Positions 34,218-61,173 of a DNA stretch of 64,000 nt are shown one piece after another (within the stretch, counting starts at the first letter, position 1; each line of letters begins with the position of its first letter). The notes beneath the pieces were generated by a model, which searched no databases, was not told the origin of the DNA, and saw nothing but the letters and a program-made list of their open reading frames with translations. Position numbers and translations under genes: made by a program. The stretch is taken from positions 193,187 to 257,186 of the forward strand of contig NVTE01000003.1 in assembly GCA_002401455.1 (NCBI GenBank), given 5' to 3'. This DNA is from Alphaproteobacteria bacterium. Lineage in GTDB: Bacteria > Pseudomonadota > Alphaproteobacteria > Sphingomonadales > Emcibacteraceae.

Positions 34218-37200
34218 TTAGGTGTTTGGTTTACCATAGCCGCCGCCGCCCGGGGTTTCAATGATGAAAATATCACCCACCTCCATGGCGGTCTCCGCAG
34301 CATAGGGCAGTGTCTCCAACGTGCCATCCGCCCGCATGACCTGATTGAGGCCACAGGTGCCAGCCTCGCCGCCGTCAAGTCCTGGCGGCGGCAGGGTGCG
34401 GTGATTGGCGATGATCGCGGCGGTCATGGGCTGGGTGAAGCGCAGATGACGGACAACCCCGTCCCCACCGGCATATTTGCCTTGGCCACCGCTGCCGCTG
34501 CGGACCTCAAATTTCTCAAGGATCACCGGATAGCGCCATTCGAGCACCTCCGGGTCGGTCAGGCGGCTATTGGTCATATGGGACTGGATAGCGCTGGCCC
34601 CGTCATTATTTGCGGTCGCGCCCATGCCGCCGGCCAGGGTTTCGTAATATTGCAGCTCCGCATTGCCAAAGGTGACGTTATTCATGGTGCCCTGGGACGC
34701 CGCCATGACGCCAAGGGCCAGGAACAGGGCATTGACCACCGCCTGGGAAGTCTCCACATTGCCAGCGACCACCGCTGCCGGGGGCCGGGGGTTCAGCAGG
34801 CAGCCTTCGGGTACGATCAGGGTCAGGGGGGCCATACAGCCCTCATTGAGCGGGATATCATCGGCGACCAGACAGCGGAAGACATAGAGCACGGCCGCCC
34901 GGCAGATGGCCAGCGGCGCATTGAAATTGCTGTCCACTTGGGCAGAGGTGCCGGTGAAGTCTAGGGTCGCGCTGCGGCTTGCCGGGTCAATAGTAATCCT
35001 GACCCGGATCAGGGCGCCATTATCCAGCGGATAGTCAATCTGGCCATCTTCCAGCACCTCTATGGCCCGGCGCACGGCTTCTTCTGCATTGTTCTGGACA
35101 TGGGTCATATAGGCCTTAACCACGGGCAGGCTGAAGTCGGCGACCATCTGGTCAAGCTCGTGCATGCCCTTGGCGTTGGCGGCGATCTGGGCTTTTAGGT
35201 CGGCGATATTCTGGGCCGGATTGCGGGCCGGCCATGGCCCCTGGGCAAGGGCGGTCAGCAGGACGGCTTCTTGAAATTTTCCGGCCCTGACCAGGGGGAA
35301 ATTATCAAACAGGATGCCCTCGTCACTGATCACATGGGACAGGGGCGGCATGGAACCGGGCGTAATTCCGCCAATATCCGCATGATGGCCCCGGGTCGCC
35401 AGATAGAATAGCGGCTCAGCACTGTCGCCGTCGCCCTCTGCCTCAAAATAAGGTGCGATGACGGTCATGTCAGGCAGATGGGTGCCGCCGTTATAGGGAT
35501 CATTGAGCAGGAAACTGTCGCCCTGTGCCATGGTGCCCCGGTTGGCGGCCATGATCGCCTTAACGCTGGCGCCCATGGAGCCCAGATGGACCGGCATATG
35601 GGGCGCATTGGCCACCAGATTGCCGGCACCATCAAACAGGGCGCAGGAGAAATCCAGCCGCTCCTTCATATTGACCGAATGGGCGACCTTCTCGAGCACC
35701 GCCCCCATCTGCTCAGCGATGGACATGAACAGATTGTTGAAAATCTCCAGCATGATCGGATCGGCATCGGTGCCCATGGGCGACGTGCGCTGCAGGTCCT
35801 CCACCCGGTCGAGGATCAGGTTCTGCAGCGGGTCGAGATGGGCGGTCCAGCCCGGCTCGACGATGTTGGTGCCATGGTCTTCCAGAATGATCGCCGGACC
35901 AATGATCTTTTGGTCTAGCCTCATATGGTCCCGGTGGCTGACCGGGCAGGGGTGAGCGGCGCCGTTGGTGAAGATCTTCCGGTCGGCTATGGAGGGCGCC
36001 GGGATATTTTCAGGGGCCAAAGTAGTCTTGATCTCCTGACCGCCGCCGGAGGCTTCCACCGACAGGGATTCGACGATCAGCGGCTTGTCCGGGCTGATGA
36101 AGCTGAAATGCTGGTGATGCTGACGCTCAAAGTCGCGGATAATATCGGGCAGGGGGCCAAGCGGTACTTGAAGCGTACTGTCACTGCCCTGGTATTTGAG
36201 GTGCAGTTTTTTGACCAGGGTTATGTCATGGACTTCCTGATCGACCAGGGCCTGGGTTGCCGCTTTCGACAGCTGGGCCATGCTGGATTCAATATCGGTC
36301 AGGGTCTCTGCGGTCAGGGGTAGTTCGACGGCCTGTTCCTTCAGGACCCGCAGGTCAGCCAAGCCCATACCGTAGGCCGACAGAACCCCGGCCAGGGGGT
36401 GGAGGAATATTTTCCTGATGCCCAGACGGTCGGCGACCTTGCAGGCATGCTGACCGCCGGCACCGCCGAAGCTGACCAGGGTATAATGACTGACATCATA
36501 GCCGCGCTGGGTTGATATTTTCTTGATGGCGGTGGCCATATTCTCGACCGCGATGGTCAGGAAGCCTTCGGCGATATGCTCCAGCGACGGCGGCGTGCTC
36601 ATCTGGTCGGCGATAGCCTGAAATTTGGTGCGGACGATATTTTGGTCCAGGGGCTGGTCGGCATTCGGGCCAAAAACCTTGGGGAAGAAATCCGGATTCA
36701 GGCGGCCAAGCAGGATATTGCAGTCGGTGACGGTCAGCGGACCGCCGCGGCGGTATCCGGCGGGACCGGGATTGGCCCCGGCACTGTCGGGCCCAACCTG
36801 AAAGCGGCCGCTGTCAAAGCTGAGTAGCGAGCCACCACCGGCGGCGACCGTATGGATATGCATCATCGGCACCTTGATCCGGACCCCGGCGATCACGGTC
36901 TCGGCACTGCGCTCAAATTCGCCGTTATAATGGGTGACATCGGTCGAGGTGCCGCCCATGTCAAAGCCGATCAGCTTGTCAAATCCGGCCTGGGCCGCGA
37001 CCTTGACCGCGCCGACAATGCCGCCTGCCGGGCCGGATAATATGGCGTCCTTGCCGCGAAAATGATCGGCAGAGCTCAGGCCGCCGTTGGACTGCATGAA
37101 ATAAAGGGGGACCCCGGATAACGCCGTCTGAATCCGGGTCATATAGCGGGTGAGAATAGGGCTGAGATAGGCATCGACCACGGTGGTCTCGCCCCGGCTG

Positions 37201-37808
37201 ATCATCTTGATCAGCGGGCTGACCTGATGGCTGAGGGAAATCTGGCTGAATCCAATGTCGGCGGCCAATGCGCCGATTTTCTGCTCCGTATCCGGATAAC
37301 GATAACCATGGATTGAGACAATAGAAATGGCCCGGATGCCGTTGGTGAAATGTGCCTCCAACTGGGGCCTCAGGAGCCCAAGGTCGGCGGGTCTGAGCAC
37401 TTTGCCCCGGGCATCAATTCTCTCGTCAACCTCGACCACCGCATCATACAACAGGTCGGGTAGGATCACGTCGAGGGCAAAGAGGTCGGGCCGGTTCTGA
37501 TACCCTATGCGCAGGGCGTCGCGGAAACCTTTTGTTATGACCAGCAACGTTCGGTCGCCCTTGCGTTCGAGCAGGGCATTGGTCGCGACCGTGGTGCCCA
37601 TCTTGACTGCGGCAATCCGGTCGGCCGGGATCGGCGCCTCGGGGCCAATTTTCAACAGGTCGCGGATACCCTGGAGAGCGGCATCATCATATTGTTCAGG
37701 GTTTTCCGACAGCAGCTTATGGCTGTGCAGGGCCCCGTTCGGGCTTTGGCCGACGATATCGGTAAAGGTCCCGCCACGATCAATCCAGAACTGCCATTTA
37801 GCATCCAT
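34218..37808 (-). CDS. 5-oxoprolinase / hydantoinase (HyuA-HyuB fusion)
   Basis: A 1196-residue ATP-dependent amide hydrolase. The first 680 residues are the HyuA part: [20 protein letters not shown] (nucleotide fold), [17 protein letters not shown] and [14 protein letters not shown]. From about 690 comes the HyuB part: [29 protein letters not shown]-like [24 protein letters not shown] and a terminal Gly-rich [11 protein letters not shown]. Length and fused order match single-chain 5-oxoprolinase, which opens 5-oxoproline to glutamate. I start at ATG 37808, with GGAG 6 bases upstream. Its first 11 codons and upstream region recur several times to the right, up to 46.7 kb. Confidence 0.93.
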
Positions 37809-38096
37809 TTTTGTCTCCAAACCCGCAGTAAACTGCCATTCTCATTTTTCTACATAATATTTACACGGCCATATCACGTCAATAAAATCAATGAGTTGCA
37901 ACCCTATTTTTGACAAGCCGTTGACACGTGGTAGCAAACTTTTGCTCTGTTGAATAGGTGATAGTATAACAAATTGTATTGGTGAGTTGTTGACAGATTT
38001 TTACATGTAAATGAATTGAAATCGCATATATTCAATTCATAGTATGAACTAATAGTAGTATGGCTATGATATCTGGCAGAAGCATTGATACTTGAT
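37777..38096 (-). repeat. repeat copy 1: oxoprolinase 5-prime end and upstream region
   Basis: The genuine start of the oxoprolinase gene plus about 290 bases upstream. Marker sequences shared with copies 2-4 are CAATCCAGAACTGCC at the left edge, TTTTTGACAAGCCGTTGACA in the middle (37908-37925 area), ACAGATTTTTACATGT, and GATACTTGAT at the right edge (38087-38096). Compared with copy 2 it lacks an internal stretch between TAGTATGA and ATGATAT. The right edge cuts into a DUF1330-like gene fragment. Confidence 0.8.
37854..37882 (-). promoter_or_regulatory. sigma-70-like promoter of the oxoprolinase gene
   Basis: On the minus strand TTGACG (37882-37877), 17 bases, then TATTAT (37859-37854), about 46 bases before the ATG at 37808. 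The same positions in repeat copies 2 and 3 are degraded (CTGTCG and TTGGCG with poor -10 boxes). Confidence 0.65.
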
Positions 38097-38231
38097 CGTA
38101 AAAATACGATTGATGGGCTCGACCGTTTCTGAAATTAGTACTTTAGAGACTTCAAAATCATATCCAAACTTTCCCCCATACGTGTTTAAAATTGGTTTCA
38201 TTGCACGGCGATACTCTTCGATGCTACTTTC
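38064..38231 (-). pseudogene. 3-prime-truncated DUF1330-like gene fragment
   Basis: On the minus strand the frame after the stop at 38234-38232 reads EEYRRAMKPILNTYGGKFGY then EVSKVLISETVEPINRIFTI, which looks like the conserved part of a DUF1330-type small protein. An ATG lies at 38201. The frame then runs into the right end of repeat copy 1 (from 38096) and ends at TAG 38066-38064 after a few unrelated residues. It has no N-terminal part, so it is a remnant truncated on both sides. It follows the dioxygenase-like gene in the same direction. Confidence 0.55.
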
Positions 38232-38235
38232 TTAT

Positions 38236-38592
38236 TCATTCACCACCAAATATAGAAAGATTCAGTTGGACAGTATCGCCTAACCAATAGGCGTAATCTG
38301 TGTGGTCCTTTAAATCATCGCCGGTTTGGCCATGAACAAACACGGTAAGACCATTGCGGTTCTCACTGAGCCATGGAATAAATTGGTCGAAGTCTTTGTC
38401 AGAGAAACTTATTTGGCAACTCCATTTTGGATGAGGGCCGACTGGCTTCTGATGAACTCTGCCTACCTTTAAATCAAAACGCTTGCCTGCTTGGCCACAC
38501 AAGTTGCTAGCAAACTTAACTGTATTACTGTCGAAATAGACATGAGCGTGATAATGCTTATGGATGTTTATGGGGTGTTTTATTTCAGTCAC
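38236..38592 (-). CDS. DOPA 4,5-dioxygenase family protein
   Basis: A 118-residue protein with the compact DOPA-dioxygenase pattern: metal-ligand-like HYHAHVYFD near the N terminus, then GRVHQKPVGPHPKWSCQISF, WLSENRNGLTVFVH, GDDLKDHTDYAYWLG and a final LNLS strand. Family members cleave catechols extradiol, or have unknown roles in bacteria. I prefer GTG 38592, with AAGG 9 bases before; TTG 38601 is too close to that site. It is 30 bases downstream of the tetR gene and probably in its operon. Confidence 0.8.
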   Translation of the reverse strand: MTEIKHPINIHKHYHAHVYFDSNTVKFASNLCGQAGKRFDLKVGRVHQKPVGPHPKWSCQISFSDKDFDQFIPWLSENRNGLTVFVHGQTGDDLKDHTDYAYWLGDTVQLNLSIFGGE

Positions 38593-38622
38593 TTCTATCA
38601 ACCTTGTTTAAGATATTTGCAC

Positions 38623-39216
38623 CTAGAATTTGTCTATCGAAAATTTGATAACTTTTTTGAGTTCGGAAAGCTTTGCGCCATTTCGCGCCATCACCGACAA
38701 ACCAAACATCAAGGTCAGAATATAATGAGCCATACTGGCTGGGGAGTGTTCACTGGTTATAGTTCCGGCTGATATTTCGTCCGTGAAAAATGCTGTCAAA
38801 GAAGATTTCGTCGCCTCGTTAATGTTGACGATCGTCTGCAAAGCCTCCTCTGGAATACAGGTGCCACCAATTTCACTGGTACTTATGCTAACGAAACAGC
38901 CAGGTGGTAATTTCGGATCTGTAAGCCCTTCTGCAATGGATGTTAAATAACAGCCTATTCTTTCTTTTAAGCCTTTATCAGCCGAATAAAGATGTTTGGT
39001 GTGGATGACGCCATGTTTCTGAACGTATCGTGTGAGCGTCGTTTTATACAGCTCTTCTTTATTGCCGAATGCCGAATATAAACTGGGTTTATTAATGCCC
39101 ATAGCCTGGGTCAGGTCCGATAGGGACGTGCCCGGGTACCCGTTGATCCAAAAGACTTCCATCGCTTGATCAAGCGCAATCTCTTTGTCAAATGTACGGT
39201 GACGACCTGCTTTCAT
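38623..39216 (-). CDS. TetR/AcrR-family repressor
   Basis: A 197-residue regulator. The N-terminal helix-turn-helix runs from TFDKEIALDQAMEVFW through SLSDLTQAMGINKPSLYSAF to NKEELYKTTL; the rest is a helical ligand domain with SIAEGLTDPKLPPGCFVSIS and TSEHSPASMAHYILTLMFGL, typical of the YxaF/LmrA-like C-terminal group. Divergent from an SDR gene, with two identical palindromes between them, so it surely controls both directions. Similar regulators sense quinones, electrophiles or small aromatic compounds; the ligand here is unknown. Confidence 0.93.
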   Translation of the reverse strand: MKAGRHRTFDKEIALDQAMEVFWINGYPGTSLSDLTQAMGINKPSLYSAFGNKEELYKTTLTRYVQKHGVIHTKHLYSADKGLKERIGCYLTSIAEGLTDPKLPPGCFVSISTSEIGGTCIPEEALQTIVNINEATKSSLTAFFTDEISAGTITSEHSPASMAHYILTLMFGLSVMARNGAKLSELKKVIKFSIDKF

Positions 39217-39257
39217 TTTTAAACAACTCCTTATTTTATTTTCTGCTTGCTATTATG

Positions 39258-39297
39258 TACCGATCGGTATAATTTGTCAATAACATACCGATCGGTA
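39258..39297. promoter_or_regulatory. twin palindromic TetR operators
   Basis: TACCGATCGGTA occurs twice, at 39258-39269 and 39286-39297, both perfect palindromes with centres 28 bases apart. They lie in the gap between the divergent tetR and SDR genes. The spacing would place two dimers on nearly the same DNA face. Confidence 0.88.
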
Positions 39298-39340
39298 CAA
39301 AATACATTCATAATTAAAACAAACAAAAAAGGATAGAGAA

Positions 39341-40096
39341 ATGAGCAATTTAACAGGAAAAACAGCAGTTATTACAGGCGGAAACAGTGGTATAGGCTAT
39401 GCAACGGCAAAGAAATTTAAGGCGGACGGAGCCAATGTTATCATTACCGGCAGATCGTTAGAAAGAGTGCAAGCGGCAGCGGATGAGTTAGGAGTTAAAG
39501 GCATCGTGGCAGATGTCTCTGATTTGTCTGCACTGGATGATCTCGTAGAGCAGGTCAAAAATGAATATGGTCAGCTTGATATATTATTTGTCAACGCAGG
39601 TATTTTTGCGCCAGCACCCGTTGGACAAAATAGCGAAGAGATGTTTGACACTCAGATGGGCATTAACTTTAAGGGGGCGGTGTTCACCATTGAAAAATTC
39701 TTACCCCTGTTAAAGGAGGGGGCGTCTATCATTAACCTCTCCTCGATCAACGCTTACACCGGCATGTCAAATACCGCTATTTATGCGGCCTCAAAGGCGG
39801 CTTTGAATGCGTACAGCCGGACCGCAGCAACCGAGCTCGCGCCCAGAAAAATCAGAGTGAATGTGGTTAATCCCGGACCGGTTTCTACCCCTATTTTTGG
39901 TAAAACCGGCATGCCGGAAGCACAGTTAAATGACTTTGCCGCCGCCATGCAAGACAGAATCCCGTTGAAACGTTTTGGCCAGCCTGAAGATATAGCAAAC
40001 CTGGTGGCTTTCTTAGCCTCAGATGAGGCGTCCTTCATAACCGGTGCTGAATACAACATCGACGGTGGCATGAATGTGAACCCGATTTTATCGTAA
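39341..40096 (+). CDS. SDR-family NAD(P)-dependent oxidoreductase
   Basis: A 251-residue classical short-chain dehydrogenase. The cofactor motif is TGGNSGIGYATA near residue 13; NAG appears in FVNAGIF; the catalytic Ser is in INLSSINAYT, and Tyr/Lys in YAASKAALN; the C-terminal NPGPVSTPIF and FITGAEYNIDGG are standard. AAGGATAGAG lies before the ATG. It is controlled with the divergent TetR gene through the twin operators, and is followed by an azoreductase-like gene. Substrate unknown. Confidence 0.93.
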   Translation: MSNLTGKTAVITGGNSGIGYATAKKFKADGANVIITGRSLERVQAAADELGVKGIVADVSDLSALDDLVEQVKNEYGQLDILFVNAGIFAPAPVGQNSEEMFDTQMGINFKGAVFTIEKFLPLLKEGASIINLSSINAYTGMSNTAIYAASKAALNAYSRTAATELAPRKIRVNVVNPGPVSTPIFGKTGMPEAQLNDFAAAMQDRIPLKRFGQPEDIANLVAFLASDEASFITGAEYNIDGGMNVNPILS

Positions 40097-40169
40097 AGCC
40101 AACCTACGTTAATCTGGCTGCAGGGTCGTTGCAGTCGGATTAACGGCAATAATAAAGAGAAGAAGTGAC

Positions 40170-40753
40170 ATGACAAAGACGATATTAAGAGTTGATGCCA
40201 GTATGCGAAAAAATGGTTCCTACAGCCGTAAACTGGTCGATAGTTTAATCACGCAGCTGAATAAAAAAGACCAACACACAACAAAGACACGTGACCTTAC
40301 AGACGGTGTGCCCTTCATCAATGAACAATGGATTGCGGCAAATTTCACCCCCTTAACGAACGCACACCCGCACAACATGCTGAACTATTACAATCAGATG
40401 CCCTCGTAAGGGAGGTGCAGGAGGCTGACATTCTCGTCATTGGATTGGCTGTCTATAATTTTTCCGTGCCTGCCGCCTTTAAAGCCTGGATTGATCAAGT
40501 TGTGCGATCCAAAGTGACTTTCCACTATGCTGAAAATGGGCCTGAGGGTTTGCTTGAAAACAAAAAAGCTTATGTAGTGATTGCTTCAGGGGGCACTCAA
40601 GTGGGCAGTGATATAGATTTTTTCTCAGCTTATGTGCGTCATATATTGGCTTTTATTGGCATTACCGATGTGACCTTTATTGATAGCAGTGGCATTGGCA
40701 GGGATGAAAAAAAGGTTTTGGCATGCGCCAACGAGGCGATTGTGGCCCTATAA
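40170..40753 (+). pseudogene. FMN-dependent NADH-azoreductase-like gene with a frameshift at a C5 tract
   Basis: Two overlapping frames make one flavodoxin-fold azoreductase of about 194 residues. The first (40170-40409) has LRVDASMRKNGSYSRKLVD, the FMN phosphate loop. The second continues with REVQEADILVIGLAVYNFSV, then FKAWIDQVVRSKVTF and IASGGTQVGSDIDFFSAYVR. The break is at CCCCC (40348-40352); one more C would join NFTP to LNERTPAQHAELLQ in frame. It could be a recent one-base deletion, slippage-based phase variation, or a sequencing error. It would reduce quinones or azo compounds and follows the SDR gene under the same TetR control. Confidence 0.85.
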
Positions 40754-40939
40754 TTACTATCATCTAAATACTAATGTGTGTCTGTAATGTAACCGTCCAC
40801 CTAGCCTGGCTGACAGGTGACTTTCACGATTATAGTCTCTCTTGATTTACCGAGTTTAGCATTCATCTTCATTCTGATATGCCAAGAGTAAGCCCGAATA
40901 GAAATTTCAGACTAGGAATTCGTTGAGGAAACGGTATAT

Positions 40940-41349
40940 CGATCAATCCAGAACTGCCATTTAGCGTCCATTTTTGTCTCCAAACCCGCAGTAAACTGCG
41001 AATATACTTTTTCACATATTTTTATACGGCAACTTTAGCGACAGTAAAATCAATAGGTTACAATCCTATTTTTGACAAGCCGTTGACACGTGGCAGCAGG
41101 TTTGTACTCTATTGAATAGCGAAGGCTATAGCAATTTTATTGGTGACCTGTTTACAGATTTTTACATGTGAATAAAATGAAGTCGTATAGTTTTAGTTCA
41201 TAGTATGACCTAAAGGGCGCAGGCTGTCACTTCAGACGGCAACATTAAGTGAATTGCACAAAAATAAGGATTTTAAAGGTCTACTTTCGGCCATAAACGG
41301 ACGTTCACAGTTCGGGATGATATTGTAAACTGCACTAGCGATACTTGAT
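40940..41349 (-). repeat. repeat copy 2 (longest)
   Basis: Direct copy of the oxoprolinase start region. The left edge carries CAATCCAGAACTGCC, and on the minus strand still encodes [11 protein letters not shown] after an intact GGAGA ribosome site, then diverges and stops after 19 codons. The middle has TTTTTGACAAGCCGTTGACA; the right part, TAGTATGACCTAAAGG to GATACTTGAT (41340-41349), is missing from copy 1. The promoter boxes are degraded. The rest of the 657-base gap, 40754-40939 and 41350-41410, shows nothing I recognise. Confidence 0.8.
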
Positions 41350-41410
41350 GTGGATAACATTAATATCAGGCAGGTTTTTACAATAATATGTATAAATAAC
41401 ACCCCGGAAT

Positions 41411-42172
41411 TTAGTTTAATGCAGCGATCCGCTTATCAATAAGGATAAGTATGGTTTGATATTCAGTTTTTAAATCTGAAACTTCGCTTGTCGCATTAGC
41501 CGTGAAACTGTAACGCCAGTTTACATAATTTTTAAATTCTCGGCTCTTTAAAAGAGGTGTAAAATCTTCCAATGGTTCAACAGGATATTGTTTTTGTTGA
41601 TTAGGCGAATGAATTATGTTTTTCGAATGTTGTTGAAATTGCAAACTATCATAGTTTTTGATTAAAAAAGGCTCTACACCACTTTTTAAGAAATCATATA
41701 TATCCATTTCCATTAGTTTTACCTCTTGATAGAAGACATCAATATTTTGCAGGGCTTTTCTTAGCTCAATATCATCTATAATCGAAAACTTGCCTGAACT
41801 TTTCATTTCATCCAGCGTCGTCCTATGTTGTCCAAGAATACCCATTGCATAAAGACATTGATATACCAAATGATCCATCTCATCGCTTGTGATCGTGGGG
41901 ACTTCCAACTTGCTTTGCTGTATTAAACGATAACAGGCATCGGAAATTTTATATAAATCGTCCAGCCGGCTATCCGCTAATGTTATCGATGTTTCCAAAT
42001 CAGCTCTCAAACTCAAAAGATACTGACCTTCTGTACCGCGCAATTGGCGCTTTTCATTCCATTCGGTCATCATCATGCCGAGGAAAATACCCACGACAAC
42101 AACAATCACATCAAGGCCGACGGCAAACCAGTTTTGATCGACGATATGTTTCGTAAATTTACGTAAGATCAT
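41411..42172 (-). CDS. DUF6090-like membrane-anchored protein
   Basis: A 253-residue protein: basic MILRKFTKH, a single transmembrane helix WFAVGLDVIVVVVGIFLGMMMTEWNE (residues about 14-39), then about 210 helix-rich, charged residues. This is the layout of DUF6090-type proteins, whose role is unknown. I start at ATG 42172, with CGGAGA 8 bases upstream; the longer frame to 42211 only reads through repeat copy 3 in a wrong frame. The gene is a lone insert between repeat copies 2 and 3, oriented like the oxoprolinase. Codon use is AT-rich relative to the core genes. Confidence 0.6.
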   Translation of the reverse strand: MILRKFTKHIVDQNWFAVGLDVIVVVVGIFLGMMMTEWNEKRQLRGTEGQYLLSLRADLETSITLADSRLDDLYKISDACYRLIQQSKLEVPTITSDEMDHLVYQCLYAMGILGQHRTTLDEMKSSGKFSIIDDIELRKALQNIDVFYQEVKLMEMDIYDFLKSGVEPFLIKNYDSLQFQQHSKNIIHSPNQQKQYPVEPLEDFTPLLKSREFKNYVNWRYSFTANATSEVSDLKTEYQTILILIDKRIAALN

Positions 42173-42187
42173 TTTGTATTCTCCGTT

Positions 42188-42441
42188 CAATCCAAAACTG
42201 CCATTTAGCATCCATTTTTCTCTCCAAACCCGCAGTAAACTGCGGATGTCATTTTTTTACACAACGTTTACCCGGCAACCTACGCGCCAATAAAATCAAT
42301 GGATTACATCCCTATTTTTGACAAGCCGTTGACACATGGGAGCAAAATTTTGCTGATTTTAATAGTGATAGCATACCCAATATCATTTGTGAGGTGTTGA
42401 TATATTTTTGCAGGCAAATAAAATGAAGCGATAGTGGTTCA
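42188..42441 (-). repeat. repeat copy 3
   Basis: Direct copy of the oxoprolinase start region just upstream of the DUF6090-like gene. It keeps CAATCCAAAACTGCC, TTTTTGACAAGCCGTTGACA and AATAAAATGAAG. On the minus strand a leader reads [11 protein letters not shown] and ends after 18 codons, overlapping the DUF6090-like start in another frame. The right edge meets the stop codon of the 2OG oxygenase gene. Promoter boxes are TTGGCG and a poor -10. Confidence 0.8.
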
Positions 42442-43099
42442 TCTTTTTTCGGGGCTTTCTAACCCTCGAAACCATCCGGCGATACTAAACCTCTCCCGAC
42501 GCGCTTGTAGCACTTCATGGGGGAAATCCTCGCTTAAGAAAAGAACAAAATTCCCCATTTTGGGGGTAATGGTTTTAAGGGGGGGGGCTATGTCCATTTT
42601 CAGGATAGAGCAGCAGGGTCCCGTTGTCCTCTTTCCGCCAATGGGCATTGAGGTAAAGCACCGTAGACAAAATCCTGTTACTACGCCCTTTTAGCGCGTC
42701 AATATGCTTTTGATAAAAAGCACCCACAGGATATTTTGAAAAATGCGCCTCAAAATCAGAGAGTCCCATAAATAAGCGTTGATTTAAGCCTATCCGCAAA
42801 ACCTCCATTGCTGAAAGAAAATCCGCTTCTGCAGGGTCATCTGCGTCAATCCAGGCAATACGGTCTGACCGGACACGCTTATTGAGATGGTGCCCCTGAT
42901 GGCGGCCGATCCCGGCCGGTTTCCATTTATCACCTGTCAGACTTTGTGACCGCTGGTAGAGGTTCTGCAATAGGCTTTTTCTAAACACATCCTCTAAAAC
43001 AAAATATCCATCCCGGTGCAAAGCGGCAGCAATAGCATCAAGAGTTTGCTCATCAAACCCTTCACTCAAATTATTGTCTTCCTCCTCTAGGTCGCTCAT
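42439..43099 (-). pseudogene. 2OG-Fe(II) oxygenase gene interrupted at a C9 tract
   Basis: The 5-prime part from ATG 43099 encodes about 167 residues: DAIAAALHRDGYFVLEDVF, GIGRHQGHHLN, then the iron site FYQKHIDALKG (H-x-D) and LYLNAHWRKEDNGTLLLYPE, and stops after SPPP. The rest lies in the next frame (42439 to about 42587): FVLFLSEDFPHEVLQARRER, with the distal His and the 2OG-binding Arg. The switch is at nine G on the plus strand (42579-42587); eight would restore one protein of about 219 residues. Without it the catalytic triad is incomplete. It resembles small prolyl-hydroxylase-like oxygenases. Phase variation or decay are both possible. Confidence 0.8.
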
Positions 43100-43165
43100 T
43101 AAGTTATCTTTTCCTCGCACTTTTATGATTGAAGAACAATGTGGTTTGATCGCTTGTCACTAGGG

Positions 43166-43415
43166 CAATCCAGAACTTGCAGCCCTGTTTTTGACAAGCT
43201 GTTAACATGTGGTAGCAAAATTATGCTCAGTTGGATAGTGATGGTATGACAAATAGCAGTGGTGGGTTGGTGACAGAAATTTACACGTACATAAAATGAA
43301 GTCGGAAAGTATCAATCCATGGTATGATCTAAAGGACGAAGGACTGTCATTTCAGGCAGTAACATGACGTAAATTGTTCCAAAGGTAAGGGGTTTTGAGT
43401 GTCTGCTTTCGACTG
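43166..43415 (-). repeat. repeat copy 4 with internal deletion
   Basis: Keeps the left edge CAATCCAGAACT, then jumps straight to TGCAGCCCTGTTTTTGACAAG, so about 100 bases (ribosome site and promoter) are gone. From there it follows copy 2 through AATAAAATGAAG and GGTATGATCTAAAGGACG to CTGCTTTCG near 43410. The 2OG oxygenase gene starts about 65 bases to its left, on the minus strand. Beyond it, 43416-43570, I see no gene. Confidence 0.75.
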
Positions 43416-43570
43416 TGATCTCAAGTAGTCGGCGCAACACTTTACTATAATATAGCAAGAGAGGGCGTGAGATATAATTTTTTCACCCCTATCACCCTAA
43501 CGGATGTCAACAGATCGCGAGGCCACTGGGCGGTCATTGTGAGATTTAATAGGCTATAATTTTAGAGGGA

Positions 43571-43786
43571 CTACTTTTTCGCCTTGGCTTCTTCTTCAGC
43601 CGCCAATCTTAAGGCTTTTAACCGGTCCATTTTTCCCCGGGTTTTGTCTGTTCGGTCTTTTTTTTGTTTAATGAGTGTCTTATTATCGTTTTTAGGGGGT
43701 TTGCGATCTTTAAATTCGGGTTGATCACCGCGCTCAATAGCCGCTATCATTTTGTCATCGGCGGTGTTTGGTCGTATTGCTGCCAT
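43571..43786 (-). CDS. small basic protein of unknown function
   Basis: A 71-residue, lysine-rich, hydrophilic protein without signal peptide or membrane segment. Central DRKPPKNDNKTLIKQKKDRT is followed by a probable helix KMDRLKALRLAAEEEAKAKK. GAAGG stands 8 bases before the ATG, which supports translation. It might bind nucleic acid or a partner protein, but there is no recognisable domain. It lies alone between repeat copy 4 and the faint copy 5. Confidence 0.55.
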   Translation of the reverse strand: MAAIRPNTADDKMIAAIERGDQPEFKDRKPPKNDNKTLIKQKKDRTDKTRGKMDRLKALRLAAEEEAKAKK

Positions 43787-44093
43787 GAGGCTACCTTCTC
43801 TGTTTTATGTTGCTTACTAAGGTTAAAAGCATTTTTTAGCCTAGACAACGAACCCGCTTATTAGGCAAGGTTTTGTGAGGAAACTCAATACTTATTATTA
43901 TAAATTATAATTTAGATGCCTGCAGAAAACTAGATATAAAACCAAAAAAATAAAGGGGTTGTAATTCTATTTTTTGCAATTCGTTAAGGGTGTAAAGAGA
44001 ATAATCTATGATATTGCCTCAATTATTTGATCTACGGGTTGCCTCACCGATCGGAAAATGTTTTAGTGAGGGTCTAAATTGGGAAGAAATTGC
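43787..44093. other. AT-rich gap with a faint repeat copy 5
   Basis: About 300 AT-rich bases without a gene. At 43957-43990 the stretch GGTTGTAATTCTATTTTTTG and following CAATTCGTTAA line up without gaps against GTTGCAACCCTATTTTTGAC / AAGCCGTTGA of the repeats. By eye roughly three quarters of 30 positions match, in the same orientation. It may be a decayed fifth copy. Confidence 0.4.
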
Positions 44094-44900
44094 ATGTGGA
44101 AAAACGCTTTACTCAGTGCTGCTCTCGTTGTTTTCATGGTTGGCCTTGCCCCAGGTAACGGCTATGCTGATGATGAAAAGGTCAAACGTTTTGCCCTGGT
44201 GATTGGCAATCAAAATTATATCGTTTCTCCTTTGAAAAATTCAGCCAATGATGCCCGGTCCATTTCAAAAGCCCTTCTTAAAATTGGTTTTGATGTCACC
44301 ACAGCCTACGACCTATCTTCACAAGGCTTTGCGCAATCAATTACAGCGTTTTATGACCATATAAAAACTGAAGGGAATAGGAAAAGCCTCGCTTTTTTCT
44401 ATTATGCGGGCCACGCGGTACAAGTTAATCATCGTAACTATCTGGTGCCCGTGGAAATGGATTTCACTCAGGATGAGAATTGGGCTGATAAACTTTTTGA
44501 CATCAATCAGTTGTTTGCAAGTTTTCCCAAACATATAGCAATGCAGAATGTGGTCGTTTTAGATGCGTGTCGCAATAATCCGTTTAAGGGTATGGATGAC
44601 GGGTTATATGCTGACGGTCTTGCGCCGCTGAGAGCGCCGGCAAATACCTTAATCGCCTATGCAACGGAGCCCGGAAGCGTTGCGAGCGACGGAAAAGGCA
44701 AAAATGGGGTTTATACAAAATATTTCCTCAAATCTTTGAAGAACAAAGTGACGATTGAGGAGATGTTCAAAAAAGTGCGTAAAGGCGTGTCAAAAGAAAC
44801 CAGGAAAAAGCAAATTCCCTGGGAACATTCGTCGCTGTTAGAGGACGTTTTTTTAAACCCGCCCAAAAACAGAAAAATGCCCGCTCTGGTGACATTTTAA
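44094..44900 (+). CDS. exported caspase-like (peptidase C14) protease
   Basis: A 268-residue protein: signal peptide MWKNALLSAALVVFMVGLAPG ending near YA-DDEK, then a caspase p20 domain. It begins RFALVIGNQNY, with SANDARSISKALLKIGFDV, the catalytic His107 in FYYAGHAVQ and Cys159 in VVLDACRNNPF. YATEPGSVASDGKGKNGVYT follows, the substrate-side loop of orthocaspases. No further domain. The signal places it in the periplasm. Start ATG 44094 has GGAAG 7 bases upstream. It could be a regulator of proteolysis, a toxin-like effector or a stress protease. Convergent with the beta-barrel gene by 9 bases. Confidence 0.88.
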   Translation: MWKNALLSAALVVFMVGLAPGNGYADDEKVKRFALVIGNQNYIVSPLKNSANDARSISKALLKIGFDVTTAYDLSSQGFAQSITAFYDHIKTEGNRKSLAFFYYAGHAVQVNHRNYLVPVEMDFTQDENWADKLFDINQLFASFPKHIAMQNVVVLDACRNNPFKGMDDGLYADGLAPLRAPANTLIAYATEPGSVASDGKGKNGVYTKYFLKSLKNKVTIEEMFKKVRKGVSKETRKKQIPWEHSSLLEDVFLNPPKNRKMPALVTF

Positions 44901-44909
44901 TAAGCCATC

Positions 44910-45713
44910 TTAGTAAACATAGGCTAGTCCAACATGTAAACTGGTGGTTTTATCCGTAATATTTTCAAAGGTATGGCCATCAATCTGGATGTCTTGCTTA
45001 TAGCTGTTAATCTTAAACTTGGTTTGAAAAAGGACATTACTTGACAGTGGCATAGTCCAACTGACCCCGACACTAATACCTGTTATATCTCCTTTTACTC
45101 TCCCTGTTAGATCATCGAATTCAAGCTCTTCTTCCTCCTCTTCATCTTCGTCAGTATTCGCGCCAAACTGATTGATGCCGTCGAGCATTGCATAAGCAAC
45201 AGAGAAATTTAAGTTGCCGGCTTTTTCAAACTTAAATGTATATCCAGTGCCAATGTAAGGTCCTTTTTGTTGATAAAACTCGGCGACTGTAATGGGAACA
45301 CCTTCATCCTCACTGTCCCGAGAAGTGAAATCCATTGTTGTTTTGCCCGACTTATAGCCGGCAAAAACAGACCAATTCGGCATTGCTTGATAGGCAAGTG
45401 TAATATCCAGGTCACGTCGTGAGGCTTTTCCTATATCCTCTTCTTCTGACACATTTGCGTCATTAAGGGCAAAACTCCCATTGACGGACAACTGCCACTT
45501 ATCTTTAATTGCGCCGATCATAATATTGGCGCTAGAAAAGCTAATACTATGATCCAGTTTCTCAGGAAAAGAAAAATTACTATACCCCAATGACGCGCCT
45601 GCAATAAAGCGGATGTCTTCAAAAGTATCTTCAGCTGATGTTGAGAATGCTATGGTTGAAGAAAGAAGTATGATGGAAATGAGTTTAGTTAACAAATAGG
45701 TGTGTTTAATCAT
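44910..45713 (-). CDS. predicted outer-membrane beta-barrel protein
   Basis: A 267-residue protein with a signal peptide (LISIILLSSTIAFSTSA) and a body of alternating, amphipathic strands: GASLGYSNFSFP, WSVFAGYKSGKTTMDF, YIGTGYTFKFEKAGNLNF, GISVGVSWTMPLSSNVLF. It ends in LHVGLAYVY, the aromatic C terminus expected for outer-membrane insertion. An acidic loop TDEDEEEEEELEFDD lies about residues 192-206 and could bind cations. No named family is recognised. It lies in the caspase module with a 9-base convergent gap. Confidence 0.65.
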   Translation of the reverse strand: MIKHTYLLTKLISIILLSSTIAFSTSAEDTFEDIRFIAGASLGYSNFSFPEKLDHSISFSSANIMIGAIKDKWQLSVNGSFALNDANVSEEEDIGKASRRDLDITLAYQAMPNWSVFAGYKSGKTTMDFTSRDSEDEGVPITVAEFYQQKGPYIGTGYTFKFEKAGNLNFSVAYAMLDGINQFGANTDEDEEEEEELEFDDLTGRVKGDITGISVGVSWTMPLSSNVLFQTKFKINSYKQDIQIDGHTFENITDKTTSLHVGLAYVY

Positions 45714-45854
45714 GAATAAACTCTTATGTTATGAGATTTGGCGACGGGCTGATGGTAGAGGGTAAGTGCTTAGGAAATATAATCGTTTGTCTGGATATTT
45801 TCTGAAATATATTATACGGTACTAAACATATTTAATGTTCTTAAGGCAAGTATT

Positions 45855-46061
45855 ATGAAACTGAGACGTTTATTTATTCTGCTACCGCTTTCTCTGATAG
45901 CGTGTAATTCTAATACCGTAGTCGACGATGTGCCGCCGCAAATCCAGTCAGGGAATGATAGTTCCTCATCAGAGAAAATGGATGCTGATGGTGTTAAAGA
46001 CCGTGGTTATGATCCTTGCAAGATCAATCCTCAGCTAGAGATTTGCAAAAAAAATCCATGA
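45855..46061 (+). CDS. small putative lipoprotein
   Basis: A 68-residue lipoprotein: LFILLPLSLIAC with the lipobox cysteine at about residue 17. A polar mature part rich in Ser, Asp and Asn follows, ending with two cysteines (DPCKINPQLEICKKNP) that could form a disulfide. The stop overlaps the start of the next gene by 4 bases (ATGA), so translation is coupled. Unknown function. Confidence 0.7.
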   Translation: MKLRRLFILLPLSLIACNSNTVVDDVPPQIQSGNDSSSSEKMDADGVKDRGYDPCKINPQLEICKKNP

Positions 46062-46615
46062 ATAAGCATGAGGAAAGGCTTCAATTCTATGAGATAACAG
46101 GGACGTGGTTATCAGCAATAATAATGATTATTGGGGGTGTTTTTGGTATTTTCCAATATCTAGAACATAAGAACGATGTGAGAATTGAAAGGTCGATGAC
46201 CTTTGTCGAAAGATTTCAAGACAACACGGTGACCTTAAGTGCACGTAAAAATCTATCCCAAAGTATAGATGGTAAAATCGATGAGCTGAATGCCTTGCTG
46301 AGTAATAAAGACCTAAAGGCGGAAGAGTTATCAGCCTTGTTTGATGCTGAAATTGTCAAGCTTGTTAAACAAGACGTATTAACCGAGCATTTAAAGCATA
46401 TTTTCACTTTTTATGAGCAACTGGTTTATTGTGTTGAAATGGAACTCTGTGATCGGGACGTGGCCGATATGTTCTTTGAAACGGAAGCAAAATCACTGAT
46501 CAGGACGTATTATCCTTATATATGTTATATCCGCAAAGAATGGCATAATACTGAGGTGTATGCTTCAATTGTGAGATTTTATATTGGTGAAAATTCAGAA
46601 ATATGTAGGGAATAG
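46058..46615 (+). CDS. membrane-anchored protein, DUF4760-like
   Basis: A 185-residue protein with one N-terminal transmembrane helix (WLSAIIMIIGGVFGIFQYLE, residues about 18-37), then a helical cytosolic domain of about 145 residues (RIERSMTFVERFQDN, LKHIFTFYEQLVYCVEMELC). Single-helix proteins of this shape are often labelled DUF4760, but that match is an impression. The start ATG 46058 overlaps the lipoprotein stop. Together they could link the inner membrane and the outer membrane side. Function unknown. Confidence 0.6.
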   Translation: MNKHEERLQFYEITGTWLSAIIMIIGGVFGIFQYLEHKNDVRIERSMTFVERFQDNTVTLSARKNLSQSIDGKIDELNALLSNKDLKAEELSALFDAEIVKLVKQDVLTEHLKHIFTFYEQLVYCVEMELCDRDVADMFFETEAKSLIRTYYPYICYIRKEWHNTEVYASIVRFYIGENSEICRE

Positions 46616-46641
46616 AACTTTCCTCAGATTATAAAGCCTGG

Positions 46642-46679
46642 CAATCCAGAACGGCCATTTATTGTCCATATTTTACCTC
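46642..46679 (-). repeat. repeat copy 6, stub
   Basis: CAATCCAGAACGGCCATTTA at the left edge, then TTGTCCATATTTTACCTC. On the minus strand this gives a GAGGT ribosome site and the codons MDNKWPFWIAR, close to the oxoprolinase start [11 protein letters not shown]. Nothing further of the repeat is clear, although TTACTTGAT near 46694 recalls the right edge. It marks the end of the accessory stretch. Confidence 0.6.
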
Positions 46680-46738
46680 TATCTTTCTTTAGGTTACTTG
46701 ATATAGAGTATCCTGGAAAAGTTAAAGGAAATAGAAAT

Positions 46739-47464
46739 ATGTCGATCTGGTCTTCAATCATTGGCGGTGCCGCGGGCGGGGCGATTCTCGGGGGACCCAT
46801 CGGGGCGATCATCGGGGCCGTGGCCGGTCATTATCTGGGCAAAAAAATGGGAGACGGGCTCGGGGAGGCCACCGAACAAATCACCTTTACCATCGGGGTC
46901 ATCGCCCTGAGTGCCAAGATGGCCAAGGCCGACGGCCATGTGAGCCGGGAAGAAATTGATGCCTTCCGCCAGGCGTTCAAGGTGCCTGAGGGCGAGATGA
47001 AAAATGTCGCCCGGGTCTTTAACCTGGCCAAGCAGGAATCCACCGGCTTTGAGCCCTATGCCTGGCAACTGGCGAAACTATTTCACGACCGGCCGGCGAT
47101 GCTGGAAGAATTGCTCTGCATCCTGTTTCATATCGCCCGGGCCGATAATGTCATTCATCCGGCCGAGATGGAGTTTGTCAAAAATGTTTCGGATATTTTT
47201 GGCTTCAGCGCCGCCCAGTTCGATCGGATCAGGGCGGAGAACCTGGGGCCGGATAAGGCAGACCCTTATGAAATTCTGGGCATTACCCGGGCGGCGAGTG
47301 ATAAGGAAATAAAATCTGCCTACCGGAAATTGATCAAGGAACATCACCCTGACCTGCTGGCGTCCCAAGGCCTGCCCAAGGAATTCATCGACGTGGCCAA
47401 CGAAAAACTGTCGGTGATTAATGTTGCTTATGACCGTATTGAGAAAGAACGAGGAATGAAATAG
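46739..47464 (+). CDS. djlA: DjlA-like TerB/J-domain co-chaperone
   Basis: A 241-residue protein in three parts: a glycine-zipper membrane segment (GGAAGGAILGGPIGAIIGAV, about 7-32), a TerB-like helical domain (IALSAKMAKADGHVSREEID, ILFHIARADNVIHPAEMEF), and a C-terminal J domain (DPYEILGITRAASDKEIKSA with HPD in KEHHPDLL). This is the order of DjlA, an inner-membrane co-chaperone of DnaK. AAAGGAAA precedes the start. It opens the ordinary gene stretch right of the repeat array and may be cotranscribed with the two genes that follow. Confidence 0.9.
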   Translation: MSIWSSIIGGAAGGAILGGPIGAIIGAVAGHYLGKKMGDGLGEATEQITFTIGVIALSAKMAKADGHVSREEIDAFRQAFKVPEGEMKNVARVFNLAKQESTGFEPYAWQLAKLFHDRPAMLEELLCILFHIARADNVIHPAEMEFVKNVSDIFGFSAAQFDRIRAENLGPDKADPYEILGITRAASDKEIKSAYRKLIKEHHPDLLASQGLPKEFIDVANEKLSVINVAYDRIEKERGMK

Positions 47465-47466
47465 CC

Positions 47467-48351
47467 ATGCCGGTTCATCACCTCCTCTTTGCCTTTGTCG
47501 TCTCCATCGTCTGGGGAGTGAATTTTGTGGTGATGAAGATTGGCCTGGATTATATGTCGCCGTTTCTGTTTGTTACGGTGCGCTTTACCATTGTGCTGAT
47601 GTTAATGCTGCCCTGGTTGCACCTGGTCAAGGGCCAAATGAAGTTGATCATCGGCGTCGCCCTTTGTCTCGGCGGAATTCATTTTACTTTTGTCATCATG
47701 GGGCTGGATCTGGTGGAAAATATCACCTCCATTATTATCATAGTCCAGATGCATGTGCCGCTGACCCTGATTATGGCGCATTTTTTCCTAAAGGAGAAAC
47801 TAAGTTACTGGCGCAGCAGCGGCATTGTGGTCGCCTTTCTGGGCATATTGATCATCAGCTTTGATCCAGCGATTTTGAGCGAGCGCATTGCCATTGTCAT
47901 TGTCTTTATTGCCACATTATTCTATTCCACTGGGGCTGTCCTCATGCGCAGGCTGCAGGATGTGGGGGTCTTTAACATGCAGGGCTGGACTGCTGTTGTG
48001 GCCATTCCCATTTTGCTCAGCCTGTCGCTTTATACTGAGTCCGGTCAGCTGGACCAGATCAGGGCGATGGATCTGACCGGCTGGAGTACTGTTTTCTATA
48101 CGGCGGTCCTGTCGTCTGTTGTCGGTTACGGCGGCATGAATTTTCTGCTGAAACATCATCCAGTGACCTTGATTGCTCCCATATTTCTTAGCACCCCGAT
48201 CTTTGCCACGGTAGCAGCTGTGGTCGTCTTTGATGAGGCCTTGACCGGGCGGTTTCTCGCCGGAGCCAGCCTGACGCTGCTCGGGCTGGCGGTGATCCAT
48301 CTGCGCGATTGGTGGAAGAAACGCCAGGTGGTCGAGGAGTTGTTGCCGTGA
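47467..48351 (+). CDS. DMT-superfamily transporter (EamA type)
   Basis: A 294-residue membrane protein with ten hydrophobic segments in two homologous halves. EamA features are VSIVWGVNFVVMKIGLDYM in the first half and AVLSSVVGYGGMNFLLKHHP and TPIFATVAAVVVFDEAL in the second. It exports or exchanges small metabolites such as amino acids; the substrate is unknown. It starts 2 bases after djlA and overlaps the amidase start by 4 bases (GTGA), so the three genes form an operon. Confidence 0.9.
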   Translation: MPVHHLLFAFVVSIVWGVNFVVMKIGLDYMSPFLFVTVRFTIVLMLMLPWLHLVKGQMKLIIGVALCLGGIHFTFVIMGLDLVENITSIIIIVQMHVPLTLIMAHFFLKEKLSYWRSSGIVVAFLGILIISFDPAILSERIAIVIVFIATLFYSTGAVLMRRLQDVGVFNMQGWTAVVAIPILLSLSLYTESGQLDQIRAMDLTGWSTVFYTAVLSSVVGYGGMNFLLKHHPVTLIAPIFLSTPIFATVAAVVVFDEALTGRFLAGASLTLLGLAVIHLRDWWKKRQVVEELLP

Positions 48352-49070
48352 TCGTTCAGCCCTCGCCAAACTTTAATGACCGGCCGTCCCTGGCAAAGGT
48401 TAAGTATCTGATCTTGCATTATACCGGCATGGCGACGGGGGCAGAGGCGCTGGAGCGGTTGTGCGACAAGGCGTCACAGGTCAGTGCCCATTATCTGATT
48501 GAGGAAGATGGCCGGGTCTATTCCCTGGTGCCCGAAGATAAACGCGCCTGGCATGCGGGGGTGGCGGCCTGGGAAGGCGACCGTGATATTAACAGCCTGT
48601 CGATTGGGATTGAGCTGGTTAATCCGGGCCATGACAGTCCGGGCTATGTCGGCGATTACCGACCCTTTCCAGAGGCACAGATGACGGCCCTGACCGGGCT
48701 GTGTGGGCAAATTATATCCCGCCATCAGATTGCACCCTGGCATGTTCTGGGTCATTCAGATGTGGCCCCGGACCGAAAGTGTGACCCGGGCGAACTGTTC
48801 AATTGGCAGGGATTGGCGGCCGAAGGTATCGGCCTCTTGCCAATCAATGTGGAAGGACAGGGTGTCGGTAGTCCGGTTGAGGTCGGGGTCACTCAGCAAA
48901 AATTATCCGATTATGGATATCAGATTGCCGTGACCAACCGCCTGGACTCGCAGACGTCAGCGGTCATTCGTGCCTTTCAGCAGCATTTCAGGCCCGCCAA
49001 TGTCAGCGGGACTTTTGATCAGGAATGCGGAGCCCTGTTAGAGGGCTTGCTGAGCGCAAAGGCTCACTGA
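48348..49070 (+). CDS. N-acetylmuramoyl-L-alanine amidase (AmiD/AmpD-like)
   Basis: A 240-residue enzyme starting at GTG 48348 with GAGGAG 8 bases upstream. The amidase_2 domain has zinc ligands in KYLILHYTGMA (His), VLGHSDVAPDRKCDPG (His, then Asp or Cys) and the ISIGIELVNPG-like SIGIELVNPGHD. A C-terminal peptidoglycan-binding domain follows: TNRLDSQTSAVIRAFQQHF. It has no signal peptide or lipobox, which favours a cytosolic AmpD-like role in recycling muropeptides; AmiD proteins with this two-domain form are usually lipoproteins. It ends 7 bases inside a convergent small gene. Confidence 0.9.
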   Translation: MIVQPSPNFNDRPSLAKVKYLILHYTGMATGAEALERLCDKASQVSAHYLIEEDGRVYSLVPEDKRAWHAGVAAWEGDRDINSLSIGIELVNPGHDSPGYVGDYRPFPEAQMTALTGLCGQIISRHQIAPWHVLGHSDVAPDRKCDPGELFNWQGLAAEGIGLLPINVEGQGVGSPVEVGVTQQKLSDYGYQIAVTNRLDSQTSAVIRAFQQHFRPANVSGTFDQECGALLEGLLSAKAH

Positions 49071-60978: not shown

Positions 60979-61173
60979 ATGAAAGAACGTCAAACATTTG
61001 GATTAATTCGCCTTATCAGAAAGTCTGAAAAGGGTGCCGCTGCGGCGGAATATGCCCTTATTTTAGCCATCATTGGTTCCGTTATCGCGATCGCTGCCCT
61101 TGGTCTTGGTGGTGCCATCGGTGGTGCAATGGATACTACGAAGAACTGCCTATTAGATACCACAACTTGTTAG
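60979..61173 (+). CDS. Flp/Tad type IVb pilin, second copy
   Basis: A 64-residue prepilin almost identical to the first in the leader and core: SEKG, then AAAAEYALILAIIGSVIAIA and ALGLGGAIGGAM. It differs in the tail (DTTKNCLLDTTTC), which again has two cysteines. Starts at ATG 60979 with GGAG upstream. Tandem duplication followed by divergence of the exposed tail is evident. It may be a minor or alternative pilin. Confidence 0.93.
   Translation: MKERQTFGLIRLIRKSEKGAAAAEYALILAIIGSVIAIAALGLGGAIGGAMDTTKNCLLDTTTC

Follow-up and report, generated by a model that had tools for sequence, protein, structure and literature searches.

In a 64,000-nucleotide stretch (the window) from an alphaproteobacterium of the family Emcibacteraceae (contig NVTE01000003.1, positions 193,187 to 257,186; assembly GCA_002401455.1), the start of an oxoprolinase/hydantoinase gene recurs as a direct repeat, with unrelated genes between the copies. 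The locus is probably a tandem array of small integrative elements that lack a recombinase gene and were inserted serially at one site, the first ~11 codons of the oxoprolinase gene, each with a replacement start module. Of the explanations that we considered, serial site-specific insertion fits the array best. It is supported by empty sites in related genomes, by displaced gene starts, by element ends of the same kind at the oxoprolinase gene of other genomes, and by a degraded copy away from the gene, all of which speak for the proposal in an initial annotation of the window that elements rebuilding the gene start had been inserted one after the other.

A repeated gene start in the window

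The target gene is an open reading frame (ORF) of 1200 aa on the minus strand (34218-37820; PF02538, PF01968, PF05378), and the start codon that matches the repeats is the ATG at 37808, within the first repeat copy. Four clear copies lie in the same orientation on the plus strand (copies 1 to 4, at 37777-38052, 40940-41215, 42184-42430 and 43158-43335), together with a marginal copy at 43957 and a stub at 46642. Identity is 79-82% among copies 1 to 3 and 73-80% between copy 4 and these three, and the length common to the copies is ~245-280 bp, shorter than the ~400 bases of the initial annotation. As a control, alignment scores against copies 1, 2 and 3 were compared with those of 300 shuffles of two-base blocks. 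None of the 300 equalled the score of copy 4 or of the stub against any of the three, so that direct repeats built on the 5' end of the oxoprolinase gene, as first noticed, are indeed better than chance. The faint copy listed at that time, at 43957, is less secure. Of 300 shuffles, 0 reached its score against copy 1, 3 against copy 2 and 22 against copy 3, and its profile E-value is 0.084; the matching part is in register, and we treat it as a possible eroded copy 5 (43940-43987, plus strand). Copy 4 is well recognized by the profile (E 3e-11) and was correctly placed near 43166, but ~105 bp including the start codon are deleted from it, with CAATCCAGAACT directly joined to TGCAGCCCTG. A right edge shared by two copies, GATACTTGAT, did not hold up: its distance from the core is ~310 bp in one copy and ~400 bp in the other, which by eye is not in register, and it is probably a chance likeness. 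A profile match at 61142, beside a pilin-like gene, was likewise taken as chance.

Copies 1 to 3 contain the start codons and a GGAG ribosome site within the module. Copy 1 is the present 5' end of the gene and would be an element end; it comprises codons 1-11, the GGAG site, the palindrome CGCAGTAAACTGC and paired TTGACA motifs. In copy 2 the 11 start codons are kept and run into unrelated codons and a stop, and in copy 3 they form an 18-codon frame with its own stop, overlapping the probable ATG (42172) of a DUF6090-like gene. Both copies thus have intact start codons that the oxoprolinase gene no longer uses. The module may also act as a promoter. Copy 1 has a promoter-like TTGACG-17-TATTAT directed toward the gene (37882-37854, 10 of 12 consensus positions), a weak match, since the scan gave 30 such sites as against 21.9 (sd 4.5) in shuffles. 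A conserved fold of the kind found in attC sites is unsupported: RNAalifold on six copies gave 19 pairs with a covariation term of +0.72 and one compensatory pair. The paired TTnACA motif was considered as a private mark of the module and was not used as proof, with 15 sites in 196 genomes, six of them at the oxoprolinase locus (three in the window) and the others preceding other genes, compared with 17 sites for a reversed control pattern. The paired motif in the form TTAACAnnnnGTTAACAyG (L171, L172 and L180; genomes G080 and G052) lies upstream of genes that by eye resemble those of short secreted proteins, and is perhaps the site of a host regulator.

All copies in the window genome (G000, contig C13; a 2.08 Mb assembly, 69% complete) are at this one locus and in one orientation, four of them being found by blastn and the stub being added by the profile. 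The G+C content is 41% in the array, 60% in the oxoprolinase gene and 53% in the next two genes beyond the array, which encode a djlA-like protein and an EamA transporter.

Empty and occupied sites in related genomes

The oxoprolinase has matches in 57 of 60 relatives, and its first 200 aa have matches at E<=1e-45 in 175 of 296, including 26 genomes of the window's family (the window among them). Upstream DNA was oriented for 57 oxoprolinase regions, made up of the 26 same-family regions and 31 others. A search for empty sites, which the initial annotation had recommended, found them in 12 of the 26 (G013, G017, G020, G022, G023, G024, G025, G027, G028, G029, G030 and G031), where the djlA-like gene begins 60-250 bp from about codon 5. 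Eight sites are occupied (the window, G010, G012, G016, G018, G019, G021 and G026), with 1.1-9 kb between the oxoprolinase start and the djlA-like gene; in the remaining ones the contig end is reached first (G003, G008 and G015) or the neighbor is a different one (G005, G007 and G009). In the window, the djlA-like gene (46739-47464, plus strand; TerB and DnaJ domains) is followed by the EamA transporter gene (47467-48351) and an Amidase_2 gene (48309-49070). The djlA-like cluster is present in 31 of the 57 regions, and in 24 of these 31 the EamA and amidase genes come next in order. Because of the 12 empty sites and this conserved order, an oxoprolinase start that faces djlA is likely to be the ancestral state in the window's family.

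In two occupied sites, an original gene start is recognized next to the djlA-like gene. The stub (46642-46680, plus strand), whose minus strand reads MDNKWPFWIA, is the original oxoprolinase start of the window, displaced by 9 kb. The DNA between it and the djlA-like gene (46681-46738) resembles by eye the native spacer at the empty site of G013 (ATTTTACCTCTATCTTTC vs. ATTTTTCTCTATCTTTCC). A second displaced start, AGAACTGCCATTTGG, is found in G012, at a distance of 4.5 kb from the oxoprolinase gene and with <90 bp left to the djlA-like gene; this one (AGAACTGCCATTTGGTCAT with a native-like spacer) scores near the chance hits of the whole region and was identified by its position and native neighbor. 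As the stub and its G012 counterpart are displaced original starts, the repeat would be the end of an incoming element that carries a replacement start. Common to the gene side and the far side are CAATCCAGAAC in the window and AGAACTGCC in G012, which suggests an exchange region of about AGAACTG (codons 5-8), with an overlap AGAAC(TG), as estimated from two stubs only.

The module in other genomes

A profile (R1), built from six copies and run over 296 relatives, gave 13 matches with E<1e-7 in nine genomes, 12 of them at the oxoprolinase locus (including four in the window array) and one elsewhere in G096. Six of the 13 had been used to build the profile, and the copies in G015, G096, G018 and G026 had already been found by blastn. 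Apart from the window, one module each is present at the oxoprolinase start of G015, G018, G026 and G008 (family f1), of G096, G105 and G060 (f5) and of G055 (f2); the contigs of G008 and G105 end too near the oxoprolinase start to show cargo. Weaker matches at oxoprolinase starts were not counted, because the gene start itself accounts for 42 positions of the profile and alone gives ~15-18 bits (as in G013, G003 and G017). The noncoding module is more alike than the adjoining coding DNA in G015 (80.6 vs. 69.6% identity) and G096 (77.5 vs. 60.8%).

The off-site copy in G096 (L219:2532-2641, on contig C309; E 9e-10) is degraded and has a MAPEG gene on one side and a DUF7010 gene on the other. 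Its MDAK codons are kept and are followed by other DNA, and the MAPEG gene beside it has a best relative of at most 49% among 40 other genomes searched. Over 385 genomes of the class, R1 had no match with E <3e-4 outside the window's genome; this search and that of the relatives scored at most 6 and 9 candidates per genome, respectively, under strict filters, and may miss weak copies. Module copies were not found in plasmids by blastn, nor in viral contigs with one degenerate module motif, phage records lying outside the module search.

Cargo units of the array

The array can be divided into units of 0.8-3.2 kb that hold one to four genes each, the genes of different units being unrelated. Unit 1 (37777-40943) contains copy 1, a 121-aa ORF (minus strand) and genes for a TetR regulator (38623-39216, minus), an SDR enzyme (39341-40096, plus) and an azoreductase (40170-40753, plus). 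Unit 2 (40944-42187) contains copy 2 and the DUF6090-like gene (from 41411 to 42172 or 42211, minus), which starts just left of copy 3 and whose product matches PF19578 below the family cut-off (E 0.0016, 18.7 bits). Unit 3 (42188-43165) is made up of copy 3 and a 2-oxoglutarate (2OG)-Fe(II) oxygenase gene (43120 to 42439, minus). Unit 4 (43166-43940), whose right limit is set by the marginal copy 5, contains copy 4 and a gene for a small basic protein without a Pfam match (43571-43786, minus). Unit 5 (43957-46641) encodes a caspase-domain protein (44079-44900, plus), an outer-membrane beta-barrel (44910-45713, minus), a lipoprotein-like small ORF (45855-46061, plus) and a DUF4760 protein (46016-46615, plus).

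These modules are as the initial annotation described them, except that the azoreductase and 2OG oxygenase genes each occupy two reading frames in this assembly. The azoreductase consists of two overlapping ORFs in different frames, which match the two parts of Flavodoxin_2. The oxygenase is interrupted close to a tract of about nine G at ~42580, with pieces that match positions 2-55 and 58-98 of PF13640; the split at the G run may be an assembly error, decay or a phase-variable tract. Among ten window proteins searched, no integrase, relaxase or phage gene was recognized, the nearest being a weak match of the DUF6090-like protein to Sipho_tail (E 0.001, below cut-off).

Inserts with a small recombinase at the same gene

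The initial annotation reported that no integrase is present, which is true of the window but not of all inserts at this gene, since those of G060 and G015, and only those among the 57 regions searched, carry a small tyrosine recombinase. In G060 (one contig, 100% complete) a 194-aa enzyme is encoded ~260 bp away from where the gene starts, and genes for a type II restriction enzyme and a methylase come after it; besides this enzyme the genome has only two PF00589 proteins, in frames of 305-306 aa. The small recombinase barely exceeds the PF00589 domain, which covers residues 6-185 of 194. The G015 insert extends over >13 kb and encodes a type IIG restriction enzyme, a HerA-like helicase and a 196-aa recombinase that is 51% identical to that of G060. 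In G096, the insert encodes an OLD/AriA-like ATPase.

The small recombinase family occurs in 9 of the 296 genomes, and two of the four closest members are in islands elsewhere (G009 and G092). Because relatives occur in other islands, a role of the enzyme at the oxoprolinase site is a hypothesis. Two further genes of the G015 insert are in common with the G009 and G092 islands (44-45% identity), as would be the case for a mosaic. When 13 loci were compared, long repeats flanking the small recombinase were found in G009 only. A homologue with 51% identity is present on an Azospirillum plasmid. At L115 (G009:C14), ~7 kb that include a small tyrosine recombinase gene lie between long direct repeats, which start in a tRNA-Phe gene and reach into the gene for a 442-aa integrase-like protein; and one genome, G149 (family f6), has six matches to the small recombinase.

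Discussion

We suggest the following model for the growth of the array. An incoming circle would recombine its core with oxoprolinase codons ~4-11, the module repeats presumably acting as attachment sites, and the gene would thereby gain the start codon, the GGAG ribosome site and probably the promoter of the element. Each insertion would push the previous start outward together with everything behind it, and repetition would build the array. The reaction would be catalyzed by a tyrosine recombinase acting in trans, for which the 194-aa enzyme of G060 is at present the best candidate. The DUF6090-like, 2OG oxygenase and small basic genes are in the same sense as, and just beyond, the next module (copy 3, copy 4 and the marginal copy 5, respectively) and may be read from it. 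More tentatively, and with less confidence than we have in serial insertion as such, the array could represent a cassette system other than the integron: non-autonomous cassettes of ~1-3 kb with a module that serves as attachment site, promoter and start-codon donor, mobilized in trans by the catalytic-domain-only tyrosine recombinase of defense-bearing relatives and stacked at a metabolic gene that keeps its start, with some promoterless cassettes read from the next module.

Several observations weigh against serial insertion of such elements, or against the proposed enzyme. The array is known here from its sequence alone, and not from an observed excision, circular form or expression. No likeness was visible among the far ends of the units outside the core, and in G015, G060 and G096 the place where the insert ends on its far side was not found. 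Only two of the eight occupied sites have a recognized stub, with none in G010, G016, G018, G019, G021 or G026, and the inserts of G010, G016, G019 and G021 are without a strong module. In G018, identity is hardly higher in the module than in the gene (66.7 vs. 64.7%). None of the array units has a recombinase, and the window genome (at its 69% completeness) has only two PF00589 proteins, both Xer-sized (frames of 333 and 368 aa) and on other contigs. The G015 recombinase is 6.6 kb from the oxoprolinase gene. The relative in G009 sits between long repeats at a tRNA-Phe gene along with the 442-aa integrase-like protein, and the one in G092 is accompanied by an integrase-like protein of 504 aa (PF00589 below cut-off in both), so that the small recombinase may be cargo rather than driver.

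On a different view of the units, larger islands resembling integrative and conjugative elements (ICEs), integrative and mobilizable elements (IMEs) or prophages were inserted successively and then lost their integrase and most of their genes, as in the accretion of cis-mobilizable elements (CIMEs), the small size being due to erosion. Such decay has a substantial chance of being correct, although we hold it to be somewhat less probable than not. It agrees with our preferred reading on serial insertion and differs on the nature of the units. A larger insert does exist at the same site, namely that of G015 with its restriction enzyme, helicase and recombinase; the window shows signs of decay in the two genes broken across frames, the deletion in copy 4 and the barely visible copy 5; and tandems that include decayed elements are described for IMEs in the account of PMC5704250. 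Yet none of the ten window proteins was recognized as a remnant of an integrase, relaxase or phage gene, and copies 2 and 3 retain intact start codons in spite of their disuse.

We consider the two other explanations improbable. If the module belonged to the gene as its regulatory region and had spread between chromosomes through homologous recombination, its presence at this gene start in nine genomes would be expected, and long homology could aid the exchange. But in 12 of the 26 same-family genomes the next gene is just 60-250 bp away, with no strong module, and the module recurs in the array away from the gene and, degraded, beside other genes in G096. The other source named in the initial annotation was tandem duplication with subsequent gene replacement. 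This reading, in which the genes between copies of the gene start would have been captured or replaced, seems to us the least probable of all. It is compatible with the single orientation and the single locus of all copies in the window genome. However, no module that could be duplicated is present at the empty site of G013, and copy 2 is closer to the G015 copy (83% identity) than to copy 1 (82%) or copy 3 (79%). In a tree built from the noncoding part of the module in seven copies, copy 2 pairs with G015 (support 83/96), and the approximately unbiased (AU) test rejects a single clade for copies 1 to 3 (p-AU 0.0065, from seven short rows with one long branch). Duplication within the window lineage is disfavored on account of these identities and this p-AU. 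The AU test does not reject a clade in which G015 joins these window copies (p-AU 0.29), which counts against serial insertion and leaves room for an older duplication shared with the ancestor of G015. Serial insertion of small elements remains the explanation that we prefer.

Integron arrays hold single genes or small modules between repeated sites and are moved in trans, and it was this appearance that had suggested a cassette array in the initial annotation. The array does look like one, but the repeat is a gene-start module and not an attC site, without an attC-like fold, the anchor is a metabolic gene, and no integron integrase was found in the insert. In tycheposons, displaced partial copies of the target gene mark insertions. 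The same is described for tRNA islands (Islander, PMC4383910). In both cases the target is a tRNA gene rather than, as in the array, the start of a protein-coding gene. Strand-biased elements (PMC10214605), which as described there use two or more recombinases, are less close to the array.

Replacement of a gene start is known from elements that target dusA (IMEVchUSA3 and the islands of Farrugia 2015) and from SXT at prfC (PMC8409611, PMC4482086; SXT/prfC as cited in PMC8409611). According to these accounts, the original 5' end is left at the far side, as in the array (PMC8409611, PMC4482086). The array shares with them an empty site with insertion at the 5' end, a new N-terminus with ribosome site and a displaced 5' end, but not an encoded integrase. 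The dusA and prfC elements are described as encoding one, IMEVchUSA3 having an excision factor as well, and one dusA island measures tens of kb, whereas the array stacks several recombinase-less units of 0.8-3.2 kb in tandem at another gene. CIMEs and IMEs offer a parallel for the stacking, as integrase-less elements with attachment sites are described as accumulating by successive site-specific insertions (PMC5704250). CIMEs are presented in the same source as decayed ICEs or IMEs; the window units have no recognized transfer gene. A literature search, with subscription journals mostly outside its coverage, returned no account of cassettes without a recombinase being stacked where an oxoprolinase gene begins. 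While gene-start replacement and tandem accretion are already known, a stack of 0.8-3.2 kb recombinase-less cassettes at this gene looks new.

The array suggests a route by which accessory genes can be collected at one address without an integron, while the start of the target gene is preserved. If it is true that the cassettes move in trans, they would represent a gene-cassette economy of a second kind. The oxoprolinase start appears to be a hotspot for cargo in relatives from Emcibacter and Kordiimonadaceae, with restriction-modification or defense-like genes in the inserts of G060, G015 and G096. Related GFA genes (cluster c40; that of G026 matches PF04828) are present in the inserts of two species, G026 (L057) and G021 (L059), either from an older shared insertion or as repeated cargo.

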